Below are positions 13,924 through 32,167 of a stretch of DNA of 43,407 nucleotides, in pieces. The stretch is from an uncultured Spartobacteria bacterium. Lineage in GTDB: Bacteria; Verrucomicrobiota; Verrucomicrobiia; Chthoniobacterales; Terrimicrobiaceae. A program made the position numbers and the translations under genes. The stretch spans positions 1 to 43,407 of the forward strand of contig CALFPA010000030.1 of NCBI GenBank assembly GCA_937919825.1, given 5' to 3'. Positions within the stretch are counted from its first letter, which is position 1. Each line of letters opens with the position of its first letter. The notes below the pieces were generated by a model. That model made no database searches. It was not told the DNA's origin and saw nothing but the letters and a program-made list of their open reading frames with translations.

Positions 13924-15909
13924 ATGGCTTTTTTGATTCAGGTAAATGAGGGAGTGAAATCTGTGGTTCTGCCTTTGGGCAAGGCGGTGATTTTGATCGG
14001 TCGAGATGTGGATTCGAATCTTTATCTGGACGATTCGGGTATTTCTAAAAACCACGCCTCGATCGTGTTTTCTAATGAAGCTTACACGCTCAAGGACAAT
14101 GGTTCATCAAGCGGAAGTATCGTCAATGGAGTCCGCGTCACCGAACACAAACTCTCGCACGACGAAATCATTCAGTTCGGGCCCTACACTTTTAAGGTCG
14201 ATCTGAAAAATCCGATCCCGGTGACGACATCGACCACTGAGAACGATGTGGCGCTGCAGCGCTCCGGGCATTCCTACACGCGAAAGGTGGAACTCGAGGA
14301 AATCGCCGGGCGCGAAAGCATCGGCACGCTGCATGTGGTGATGACGGATTCTCCCAAGACTCTGCCGCTCCCATTGCCGCCGTCCGGATTTTTGACAAAC
14401 TTGAGCCTTCAGTCTAGGCAAGATCTTTCCCTCCGCGGTATCTACCGCTACGCGAGGGACGGGGAAATTTTGATCCATGAGGGGCAAAATCCCGGTCGGC
14501 TTTTTCTTTTAATCTCTGGAAAATGGGAGGCCTGCAAATTGGCAACCAAGACCGTCCTCGGCCAGATTCAGCCTGGCGAATGGGTGGGGGAGGTGAGTAT
14601 TTTCGACCCCTCAGGAGCGATGTGTTCGGTGGTTGCCGTGGAGCCCTCGGAGTATTGGGAAATTACGCGCGAAGCGTTCGAGAAATTTATCAACGAGTCT
14701 CGCTCCACCGGGAGTGCGATCCTGATCGCCCTCGCGGCAACCTTGGGCCGACGAATCCGCCAGACCAACGAGGGGCTGGAGCAGGCGATCGCAGCCCGTC
14801 CCGAGCCGCCACCAGCGCGGCGTTCGCGGTTCACGCCCGTTTTTGCCGCCATCGCCGTGGTGGCGATCCTCGCAGCGGCTGCGTTTTTCCTGATGGGGAA
14901 TGTGGATAAAAGTCGTCTGCAAGCGGAAAAACGACAACTCGTCCATGAGCGCGCCGAGACCTTGGAGGAGGCCCGCCAGCAAGTGGATGCGCTCCAAGTC
15001 ACCATGGCAAAGACCAATCAAGAGTTGGAGGAAGCCAGATCGGAAAACGAGAAATTGACCAAGCGTCTGACAGCAACGCAACAGATGCTCGATCGGCTGA
15101 ATGAGGTTAAAAGCTCGATCGCGTCGGCTGCCGCCCCGTCAGCCAAAGAGATTGCGCCATCCGCCGCCGAGACCGCGCACAACGAGATTTTGGCCAAGGC
15201 GGAGACGCTTTCTGGCTACCCCTCGAAAATCATCATCACCAAAAAAACGAATGTTTCGCTGCTCGTTGATGGTCAGGTTTCGGGCAGCGCGGTTTTGCCC
15301 GAGGGCCTCGAATTACCCGCCGTCGGAGCCGAGGACGAGTTCGTGATGGTGGAGTTTGGCAATGCCCACCAGAAGATTCCGAAAGACCACACCAATTTCG
15401 CCGAGGCGCTTGTGGCCGAGTCGGAGGCGGCTAAAAACCGGCCGGCCCTTGACCCAAGCAAGGCTCCTGTGGTCCCTAGCGAACCCAAGCCGTCGGTGGC
15501 TATGCCCAAGGTGGAGCCCTCGAAACTTCATTCCGATTTCGGAAAAAAATCGGCGGAGTTGAGCTTCGAAAAACTCACTTCCGTTCTCGATGATGTGAAG
15601 CTTTTGCCGACCCTTGAGGAATTCCGTGGCATGAAAACCGCCTCGGCTTCGGATTTTGGCCGGTTTGTGCGGACGCTCGAACCCCGTTGGGAGAGGGCCG
15701 CCAAGAAGTCTGCTTCCTTGCTTTCGCTCAGCGGAGGCCAAGAGGAATATCGCGAGATTCTCAAAAAAATCATCGAAGCCTCCGAGATTCTAGACCCAGC
15801 CCGTGGTCAAATGTTCGAAGCTAAACTCCGAGAGATCGATGCGGCTTGGCTGAAGCTGAAAACCGAGGAAAAAATTCAAAACCTCACCGAGGGGCAGTCC
15901 TCCGAATAA
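13924..15909 (+). CDS. FHA / cyclic-nucleotide-binding / transmembrane / coiled-coil signalling protein
   Basis: The 661-residue protein has an unusual layout. Residues about 24-92 form an FHA domain with IGRD (25-28), SKNHASIVF (41-49) and SSGSIVNG (62-69), the phosphothreonine-binding residues. Residues about 160-275 form a cyclic-nucleotide-binding-like domain, with GEILIHEGQNPGRLFLLISG and PGEWVGEVSIF. A single membrane helix follows at about 304-324 (TPVFAAIAVVAILAAAAFFL), preceded by ARRSRF, so the N-terminal domains should be cytosolic. Then come a heptad-rich coiled coil (about 330-395), an Ala/Pro linker, an SH3-like strand segment near KIIITKKTNVSLLVDG, and a helical C terminus. It could link phosphorylation or nucleotide signals to the periplasm. 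The partner and ligand are unknown. It stands alone between a DUF1444-like gene and ilvB. Confidence 0.88.
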   Translation: MAFLIQVNEGVKSVVLPLGKAVILIGRDVDSNLYLDDSGISKNHASIVFSNEAYTLKDNGSSSGSIVNGVRVTEHKLSHDEIIQFGPYTFKVDLKNPIPVTTSTTENDVALQRSGHSYTRKVELEEIAGRESIGTLHVVMTDSPKTLPLPLPPSGFLTNLSLQSRQDLSLRGIYRYARDGEILIHEGQNPGRLFLLISGKWEACKLATKTVLGQIQPGEWVGEVSIFDPSGAMCSVVAVEPSEYWEITREAFEKFINESRSTGSAILIALAATLGRRIRQTNEGLEQAIAARPEPPPARRSRFTPVFAAIAVVAILAAAAFFLMGNVDKSRLQAEKRQLVHERAETLEEARQQVDALQVTMAKTNQELEEARSENEKLTKRLTATQQMLDRLNEVKSSIASAAAPSAKEIAPSAAETAHNEILAKAETLSGYPSKIIITKKTNVSLLVDGQVSGSAVLPEGLELPAVGAEDEFVMVEFGNAHQKIPKDHTNFAEALVAESEAAKNRPALDPSKAPVVPSEPKPSVAMPKVEPSKLHSDFGKKSAELSFEKLTSVLDDVKLLPTLEEFRGMKTASASDFGRFVRTLEPRWERAAKKSASLLSLSGGQEEYREILKKIIEASEILDPARGQMFEAKLREIDAAWLKLKTEEKIQNLTEGQSSE

Positions 15910-30051: not shown

Positions 30052-31155
30052 TCACAGGTTCAAATAGCTGGTGCCGACCCACCGAGACACGAGGGCCTCC
30101 CATTCATTTGAGGAGGTGAGATCAAGCAGGCTCTGGTTGATTTTTTCAAAGTCCGGATGATTGCTTCTCACCGGAATCGCCATGAGCGAATTACGGATGG
30201 TAATTTCAGTGATCACGAATTTCTGTGCTGGGGAGGCCTTCGCAAATTGGCGTTGAAGATACTGTAGCGAAATTTTATCCGCCACGGTGGCATCTACTTC
30301 CTTTCGCATCATAGCTTGGAGTGCTTCTTCAATAGTTTCAAAGGGAACGACATTAACCCCGAAGCGGGCAGCCAGTTTTTCCAATTCGGAGCCCTTTAAA
30401 ACCCCGCAGGTCATATTATGAAAATCCGAAAGTCTGTTGAACGAGTTGTTCAGCCGCGAGGCGGCCATGCTGGAGGCGACGGTGGCGGTGAATGCAGAAA
30501 CGAGAAGCACGCCGACAAACATCCAGCAAATGGCGATGAATCGTCCCAATAAAGTCCTCGGGGTTTTATCACCGTAGCCGACCGTGGTCATCGTAACGGC
30601 GGAAAACCACAATGCGGCACCGATGCCATGGAGGCCGCCTTGGAAATGCCCCGCATGGTGGCGCCTTTCGACAAGCCACATCAGAAGGCTCACCACCAGC
30701 ATTAATACCAAAATGCCAATGACAAATTGCCCGACAGTCCAATTCAAAAAATCATCGATCGCCTCAATCCAAAGAAACTTCCAGGGACGCTCTCGCACGG
30801 CAATGCCGACAGGTGAAATCAAGAAAGGCTGCGTAAAATCCATGACCTTCTCGTCATCGGCTGTGACACTGATCTCGCCGATGGCTGCATCAAGCGATCC
30901 GTTGGCTACGCCTTTGCGGATCATCTCAAAAGGAACCTCGACCAATTCGTATTCCAGCCCAGCTCGTGCGGCGACACTCTTCCACACTTCCACCGACAGG
31001 CCGGTCCAAGAACCGTCGGGATTTTTAAAACAGAACGGAGGTTTATCGTGGGCTCCGACTTTCAGCGGGGCGCTGTGAAGAGTTGTGGTGATGAAGAATA
31101 AAAACCACGCGAAGCGCAGGAGTGATCGTGCTTTGGAAGGGAGTGTCGAGAACAT
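30052..31155 (-). CDS. GluR0-type ligand-gated potassium channel (periplasmic binding domain plus TVGYGD pore)
   Basis: The 367-residue protein starts with a signal peptide (FAWFLFFITTTLHSAP). Then comes the first lobe of an amino-acid-binding SBP3-like domain (PLKVGAHDKPPFCFKNPDG, WTGLSVEVWKSVAARAG; 30-120). A membrane segment (141-163), a pore helix and filter TVGYGD (191-196), and a second membrane helix (203-227) follow, then the second lobe of the binding domain (DFHNMTCGVLKGSE onward). This is the lobe-pore-lobe layout of ionotropic glutamate receptors with a potassium filter, as in cyanobacterial GluR0. The segment SAFTATVASS is reminiscent of the SYTANLAAF motif. I take ATG 31155; TTG 31182 would add nine residues. 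The ligand is probably an amino acid, unproven. Confidence 0.92.
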   Translation of the reverse strand: MFSTLPSKARSLLRFAWFLFFITTTLHSAPLKVGAHDKPPFCFKNPDGSWTGLSVEVWKSVAARAGLEYELVEVPFEMIRKGVANGSLDAAIGEISVTADDEKVMDFTQPFLISPVGIAVRERPWKFLWIEAIDDFLNWTVGQFVIGILVLMLVVSLLMWLVERRHHAGHFQGGLHGIGAALWFSAVTMTTVGYGDKTPRTLLGRFIAICWMFVGVLLVSAFTATVASSMAASRLNNSFNRLSDFHNMTCGVLKGSELEKLAARFGVNVVPFETIEEALQAMMRKEVDATVADKISLQYLQRQFAKASPAQKFVITEITIRNSLMAIPVRSNHPDFEKINQSLLDLTSSNEWEALVSRWVGTSYLNL

Positions 31156-31254
31156 GGATGTCTGGGAAATTACTCTTGCCAAAATCGCTTCGCCATCCTG
31201 ATTTCGATTTCGCTTCGGATCGGGGCGCGGTCTTGCCTAGGACATCGACGCGGG

Positions 31255-31300: not shown

Positions 31301-32167
31301 GTGAAAGAATCAACGGCCATCGAACGAAAATTCATCCTGAGCGAAACGGTCCCTGTGCTTGCGAAGCCCAAGTCCAAGCCGCTTCAGATGGGGTGTCTCA
31401 GCGCGCATGGGAACCGCGAGGTTTTCGTTTGTCGGGTGGGCTCCTCGTTTTTTCTTAGGACCCGCGAGGGCCGCCAACGCTTCCGGCGCGAAGTTGATAT
31501 TCCGCTTGGGAGGTCCCATTTTGAAGCTCTCTGGAAGCAAACCGAAGGCGCTCGGCTTGCGAAAACAACACGGCAATTTCACCAAGAGGGTTTGAGTTTT
31601 ACGGTCGAGACCGTGCACGGCGGAAAGTTCACGCTGATCATGGCAGTCGTCCAGTTCCCAAAACCTCAGCTCGCGAAGTCCTTCAAGCCTCCGGTTTTTT
31701 TTGGTCAGGAGATCACGAATCTTTCCGAATACTCGGATGCCCATCTCGCGCTGCACGGAATCCCTCCGCTCCATAACGGGAAATCTCAGGCCGGCGCGTT
31801 GCCGTTTCTTTTTAAAAATGGCGTCCTGCACATCGTTCTGGTCACGAGTTCCTCGGGCACGCGCTGGATTGTTCCGAAAGGGGGATTGGAAAAACACATG
31901 ACCCGCCAAGAAGTCGCTTTGATGGAGGCGGCGGAAGAGGCCGGAGCGATCGGAATCATCGAGCCGGGATTGAAAGCTGAATGCCGGATGGCGGATGGTC
32001 GAGCCTTGCACCTTTATCCCCTCCGGGTCTCCGCCCTTCTTCCCTTCTGGCCGGAGCGTTTGGCTCGCCGGAGAGTGGTTCTACCGATTTACAGGGCCAT
32101 TCTGCGGATTCGCGATGTCGGTCTGACGCAAGCCATCCAACGAATGGCGCGTGATCTTGAGCCATAG
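31301..32167 (+). CDS. CYTH-like/Nudix hydrolase fusion
   Basis: The 288-residue protein starts with a CYTH-like segment: STAIERKFILSETVPVL (4-20), then HGNREVFVCRVGSSFFLRTR, SFTVETVHGGKFTLIMAVVQ. The ExExK signature is weak (AxExK). From about 165 a Nudix domain follows: ALPFLFKNGVLHIVLVTSSS, WIVPKGGLEKHMTRQEVALM, and EAAEEAGAIG, which keeps the metal-binding glutamates although two conserved Nudix-box positions are Met. This resembles diphosphoinositol-polyphosphate phosphohydrolases. Both domains act on polyphosphate-like or nucleotide substrates, so the fusion may be a phosphate-ester hydrolase. The start is GTG. Family confidence is good for Nudix, moderate for CYTH. Confidence 0.72.
   Translation: MKESTAIERKFILSETVPVLAKPKSKPLQMGCLSAHGNREVFVCRVGSSFFLRTREGRQRFRREVDIPLGRSHFEALWKQTEGARLAKTTRQFHQEGLSFTVETVHGGKFTLIMAVVQFPKPQLAKSFKPPVFFGQEITNLSEYSDAHLALHGIPPLHNGKSQAGALPFLFKNGVLHIVLVTSSSGTRWIVPKGGLEKHMTRQEVALMEAAEEAGAIGIIEPGLKAECRMADGRALHLYPLRVSALLPFWPERLARRRVVLPIYRAILRIRDVGLTQAIQRMARDLEP

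Follow-up and report, generated by a model that had tools for sequence, protein, structure and literature searches.

The window (the whole stretch of DNA that was analysed, 43,407 nucleotides) encodes on its minus strand a 367-residue protein with the architecture of the glutamate-receptor channel GluR0. The open reading frame begins with an ATG at 31155, and its stop codon ends at 30052. This ATG is favoured over a TTG at 31182, since the open frame in the sister genome starts just two codons upstream. The features of the gene are as follows, with the evidence for each in brackets.

30052..31155, minus strand: whole gene, GluR0-architecture channel, 367 aa
31072..31155, minus strand: residues 1-28, basic and hydrophobic N-terminal stretch, a probable signal sequence (sequence; helix 7-24 of the predicted model)
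30793..31068, minus strand: residues 30-121, S1, the first ligand-binding lobe (Pfam, alignment, fold comparison)
31042..31044, minus strand: Lys38, immediately ahead of the PPF loop (alignment)
30853..30855, minus strand: Asp101, where GluR0 has its alpha-carboxylate arginine (alignments; orthologue against GluA2)
30667..30741, minus strand: residues 139-163, predicted first pore helix (predicted model)
30568..30585, minus strand: residues 191-196, TVGYGD K+ selectivity filter (sequence, alignment)
30445..30552, minus strand: residues 202-237, predicted second pore helix (predicted model)
30469..30498, minus strand: residues 220-229, SAFTATVASS, equivalent of the SYTANLAAF gate region (HMMER alignments)
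30073..30432, minus strand: residues 242-361, S2, the second ligand-binding lobe (Pfam, alignment, fold comparison)
30277..30279, minus strand: Asp293, retained counterpart of the amino-group-binding aspartate (alignments)

A sister copy of the channel (96% identity) lies on a Verrucomicrobia metagenome assembly contig from Lac Pavin, in a genome of the same genus as that of the window. Of the 48 differences between the two copies, 33 fall at third codon positions, and dN and dS are 0.019 and 0.136 by NG86, or 0.021 and 0.118 by YN00. The gene is under purifying selection, and a pseudogene is ruled out by the dN/dS, which is about 0.14 to 0.18 in comparison with the sister.

The neighbouring genes encode a 4HBT thioesterase, a TrxB-like reductase, a glycosyltransferase, a tRNA methyltransferase-like protein, HisG and a DEAD-box helicase. 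Gene context was considered as a clue to the ligand and rejected, since no neighbour suggests one. Among the loci compared, most of which have a flank of about 1.5 kb or less, this neighbour set recurs only in the sister genome. Two other members of the same clade have different surroundings: L005 adjoins an adenylate-kinase-like protein and a ketoacyl synthase, and L012 adjoins RuvB, and among the matches listed these neighbours are also found in their near relatives. The window has no RNA features at Rfam gathering scores. The divergently transcribed neighbour at 31301-32167 (+) has a sub-threshold NUDIX match (E 0.0085), and its N-terminus is presumably CYTH-like, as judged by eye. Elsewhere in the window, 13924-15909 (+) encodes a protein that combines an FHA domain with a cyclic-nucleotide-binding domain and, further on, a part resembling a coiled coil.

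Three Pfam domains match the channel protein far above chance. SBP_bac_3 spans residues 31-361 (E 1.2e-24), and Lig_chan (147-280, E 1.7e-17) and Ion_trans_2 (150-230, E 7.6e-16) are nested within it. The predicted model, built from 35 aligned sequences (mean pLDDT 84.7, pTM 0.65), has two pore helices between two lobes. Its order is an N-terminal helix, S1, the two pore helices with a short additional one and the TVGYGD loop between them, and S2. No M4-like third membrane helix is seen in the model beyond residue 237, where the helices have at most 13 residues. The first-pass annotation had described a GluR0-like arrangement of binding lobe, pore and second lobe at 30052-31155, and this arrangement is borne out by profiles, predicted structure and phylogeny. 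The K+ filter that it had read in TVGYGD is likewise upheld, at residues 191-196 and with the Ion_trans_2 match. Channel architecture, filter and fold are established at the level of alignment and predicted structure.

The binding domain of the model has as its top fold match the core of Nostoc GluR0 (2pyy; Z 29.2, rmsd 1.7 A, 216 residues aligned), and the Synechocystis GluR0 core, 1ii5, ranks fourth (Z 28.7). Engineered glutamine-binding proteins rank between the two (Z 29.0 and 28.9). The predicted fold of this domain therefore fits the GluR0 core but not exclusively, since the glutamine-binding proteins tie with it by the rule of the tool. For the whole chain, all 50 of the Foldseek matches listed are AMPA-receptor chains, with query-length TM-scores of about 0.5-0.63.

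The SAFTATVASS segment pairs in HMMER alignments with SSYTASLTSI of the plant receptor GLR3.4, and the SAFTATVTSS of an orthologue pairs with SSYTANLAAF of GluA2. This correspondence with the eukaryotic SYTANLAAF motif, which had been noticed in the first pass, holds as a homologous position by alignment and supports common descent. The likeness in letters is limited, with three of the nine SYTANLAAF positions identical in the window protein (T, A and A) and two conservative (F/Y and V/L). All 35 aligned relatives have the threonine of the motif, so the motif is a trait of the family and is not peculiar to this protein.

The same order of S1, helix, K+ filter loop, helix and S2 is found in GluR0 (slr1257) of Synechocystis, in Nostoc GluR0 and in the Group 1 receptors (PMC2950845). 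The window protein also shares with GluR0 a TVGYG-type filter, the binding-domain fold, the S2 aspartate and the lack of a third helix. Animal AMPA receptors, which are the best whole-chain structural matches among those listed, and plant GLR3.4 likewise have a binding domain split around the pore and a gate stretch at the SYTANLAAF position. Unlike these, the window protein has a K+ filter and has no M4, no amino-terminal domain and no ligand arginine. Family-3 solute-binding proteins (AncQR and the glutamine- and LAO-type proteins) have the binding-domain fold and sequence in common with it, but they are soluble and poreless. An ABC-transporter solute-binding protein is ruled out by the pore inserted between the lobes.

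In GluR0 an arginine of S1 grips the alpha-carboxylate of the ligand and an aspartate of S2 its amino group, and both residues have been termed totally conserved in two groups of prokaryotic receptors (Ger et al. 2010, PMC2950845). In the window protein the arginine position is occupied by Asp101, as aligned to AncQR and 2pyy, and the aspartate is retained as Asp293. An alignment artefact behind the absence of the arginine is ruled out, since the HMMER alignments to AncQR and 2pyy are ungapped at the site. The HMMER alignment to 1iit has a two-residue gap directly after it. No arginine occurs anywhere in residues 86-120. The name glutamate receptor, given in the first-pass annotation, is not supported, because the residue that would hold the alpha-carboxylate is Asp101. 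The same annotation had taken loss of key amino-acid-binding residues as evidence against its reading, and such loss is seen by half, in the arginine and not in the aspartate. Since one published defining feature, the S1 arginine, fails, the protein is not filed as a glutamate receptor; by layout, filter and predicted fold it is a relative of GluR0.

The loss extends to the whole clade of the window protein. Among 26 genomes sampled from the taxonomic family, 11, including that of the window, carry a full-length copy belonging to this clade. The arginine site is D, S or A in all 11 of these, and all 11 have the equivalent of Asp293. Two further copies, one split over contig ends (G024) and one frameshifted (G011), also lack the arginine, as read by eye in the alignment column; these fragments are absent from the tree and were placed in the clade by similarity. 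The S1 arginine is therefore absent in all 13 copies found. An arginine sits two residues downstream of the site in L012 and three residues upstream of it in the broken G011 copy. The closest copy in each of four further genomes from the family (G017, G019, G020 and G023) is a member of the sister clade and has the arginine; the other nine genomes give weaker matches or none. The G011 copy (L021/L073, G011:C2:711485-712568) is spread over two reading frames, as a result of either a broken gene or an assembly error.

Other positions around the putative pocket are fixed or nearly fixed in the clade. H36, K38, E94, C250 and D293 are each present in 11 of 11 members, R321 in 10 of 11 and E96 in 9 of 11, the window protein and its sister forming the pair with serine at 96. 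In the 29 K+-type rows that keep the arginine, H36, K38, E94 and C250 occur at about 7, 0, 17 and 0%, and seven of these rows have arginine at position 38. In a wider clade of 26 rows, position 38 is lysine or arginine in 23, compared with none of the 33 rows outside, and a basic residue 38 occurs also in rows of the wider clade that retain Arg101. Positions 94, 96 and 101 align, through the orthologue, with a proline, a threonine and an arginine of GluA2, which we take to be the residues of its glutamate site. Position 38 presumably matches a pocket-facing, ligand-stacking residue of LAO-type binding proteins; a literature search found no published account of the pocket residues of that type. 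The association between arginine loss and a basic residue 38 is not significant, the three independent pairs being too few to reach 0.05. With these positions fixed and the gene under purifying selection, the lobe-1 pocket of the clade seems, from the alignment, to have been rebuilt rather than to have decayed.

GluR0 itself has its soluble lobes outside the cell and a pore that is inverted relative to KcsA; it supports K+ uptake in E. coli, in an assay with strain LB2003 at 30 mM KCl, for which its soluble domains are required, and it is involved in cell volume during KCl shock (PMC13099474). By analogy with GluR0, from which orientation, tetramer and gating are inferred, the window protein would form a homotetrameric K+-selective channel in the inner membrane. 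Its S1-S2 clamshell would close in the periplasm on a small ligand and open the gate at SAFTATVASS by pulling on the second pore helix, and K+ would flow through TVGYGD. The likely role would be to link a chemical signal from outside the cell with K+ flux and with membrane potential or turgor. The reading we favour, with reasonable though incomplete confidence, is that of a probably ligand-gated K+ channel that has the GluR0 architecture and a rebuilt pocket. Because the arginine is gone clade-wide, K38 and E94 are fixed and Asp293 is kept, an ordinary alpha-amino acid bound in the canonical manner is unlikely to be its ligand. Our guess would be a small solute, either amine-bearing or charged in some other way.

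If Lys38 has replaced the lost arginine, a carboxylate ligand, even an amino acid, could still be accommodated. The protein would then still be an amino-acid receptor, with the carboxylate gripped by Lys38 (or Arg321) and the amino group by Asp293. The constancy of K38, R321 and D293 in the clade is in keeping with this, as is the basic residue 38 of the wider clade, found in some rows together with Arg101. However, Glu94 and, in most members, Glu96 would be expected to repel acids from the old carboxylate site, as would Asp101 in the window protein, and we regard a retained amino-acid receptor as unlikely, if the most serious competitor. A second alternative is that the binding domain is an orphan that serves in dimerisation or assembly, and that the channel opens without a specific ligand. 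The rescue of K+ uptake in E. coli by GluR0 needs the soluble domains and the dimer contacts (PMC13099474), which fits such a role. An orphaned domain would nevertheless be expected to drift; the pocket positions are strongly conserved in the clade and the gene is under purifying selection, so that we consider this improbable. An ordinary glutamate-gated K+ channel of the GluR0 type has the same layout, filter and fold and the same aspartate, but the absence of the conserved S1 arginine from the window protein and from every clade copy found makes it very hard to sustain.

The favoured reading, a channel with a rebuilt pocket, can be set beside its relatives in the class. In a class-wide sample of 384 genomes, 75 contain relatives at E<=1e-20, copies that lack a K+ filter being counted. 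In a sample of 194 genomes from the phylum the Lig_chan profile matches 18, and it matches none of 14 control genomes. The first-pass remark that such receptors are found in few bacteria thus needs qualifying. A published census gave 23 prokaryotic iGluRs among 971 genomes (PMC2924276), a figure only roughly comparable with the 75 of 384 because the criteria differ.

The alignment drew on every place listed in the class search but two, G248:C105 (internal stop) and G420:C570 (partial). It also took in further relatives (some weaker hits were omitted), the Lig_chan profile hits and four plasmid genes. Removal of eleven duplicate loci and nine short pieces of ORFs left 114 rows. Eight of these were then excluded from the tree (four without a pore, three partial and one whose filter is unclear), which left 106. 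A GYG or GFG filter is present in 62 rows, of which 32 lack the S1 arginine; the other 44 have other filters, and eight of them lack it. Most searches began from the arginine-less window protein, so arginine-less relatives may be over-represented. The Lig_chan profile, which is independent of that protein, found 18 loci, four of them short pieces that were set aside; 13 of the remaining 14 are K+-type, and six of the 13 lack the arginine, two being the window protein and its sister.

A more careful tree was built from 59 K+-type rows, with three long-branch rows omitted and positions 38, 94-96, 100-102 and 293 excluded; it lacks full-length GluR0. On this tree the arginine site needs four changes, three of them forced by the branches that are starred, and the absence of the arginine among the 62 K+-type relatives, as judged from the aligned sequences, arose over at least three to four changes. 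The tree cannot separate gain from loss, and the changes are read as losses on the ground that the arginine is present in GluR0 and in the amino-acid-binding proteins. With the trait columns excluded, the 11-member clade of the window protein has support of 100/98, as does the enclosing clade of 26 rows. In the latter the deepest row, L020, sits on a long branch and its placement is uncertain. The Arg-Asp pair is intact in two of the 26 rows of the wider clade, compared with 19 of the 33 outside. In a TIGYGD lineage of 12 rows from two genera of one family (L049, L050, L052, L053, L106, L098-L100 and L102-L105), both the S1 arginine and the S2 aspartate are gone, the place of the aspartate being taken by Glu or Arg.

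The closest precedent for such a change is provided by the chemosensory ionotropic receptors (IRs) of insects, whose binding domains lack residues that contact glutamate (Croset et al. 2010, PMC2924276). They too have an iGluR architecture in which contacts to glutamate were lost. The window protein differs from them in being bacterial, in its K+ filter and in lacking M4, and the likeness is in the type of change, not in descent. From GluR0 it differs by Asp101 in place of the S1 arginine and by the clade-specific K38, E94 and C250. The accessible parts of the main texts of PMC2950845, PMC13099474, PMC6385376 and PMC2924276 do not describe an arginine-less variant of the GluR0 type, and a literature search largely confined to open-access papers found none that links Verrucomicrobiota with GluR0.

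The 2010 description has the Arg-Asp pair kept without exception in its receptors (PMC2950845), and about half of the K+-type relatives sampled here lack the arginine. If these relatives are ligand-gated, bacteria would have diversified GluR0-type channels into sensors for other chemicals. The small two-helix proteins could then be used to study the clamshell gating of a K+ pore and shifts in ligand specificity. More speculatively, Verrucomicrobiota may hold a large unstudied set of GluR0-architecture chemosensory channels in which amino-acid sensing was repeatedly abandoned, a bacterial counterpart to the insect IRs. On this tentative proposal the positive charge in the clade of the window protein would have moved from position 101 to position 38, and another class of molecule would now be sensed.

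Homologues of the same layout but without a K+ filter are common (with, for example, GGADNKG, GGCENK or GKSxYKG in its place), and several occur in the same genomes. They include L025-L042 and others, such as those at L025:847-1917 (-) and L034:803-1864 (+), and they may matter for the origin of the eukaryotic filters. A GluR0-like gene on plasmid pRt932 of Rhizobium tumorigenes (L075) has the unusual filter QASTGHRG and keeps both the S1 arginine and the S2 aspartate.
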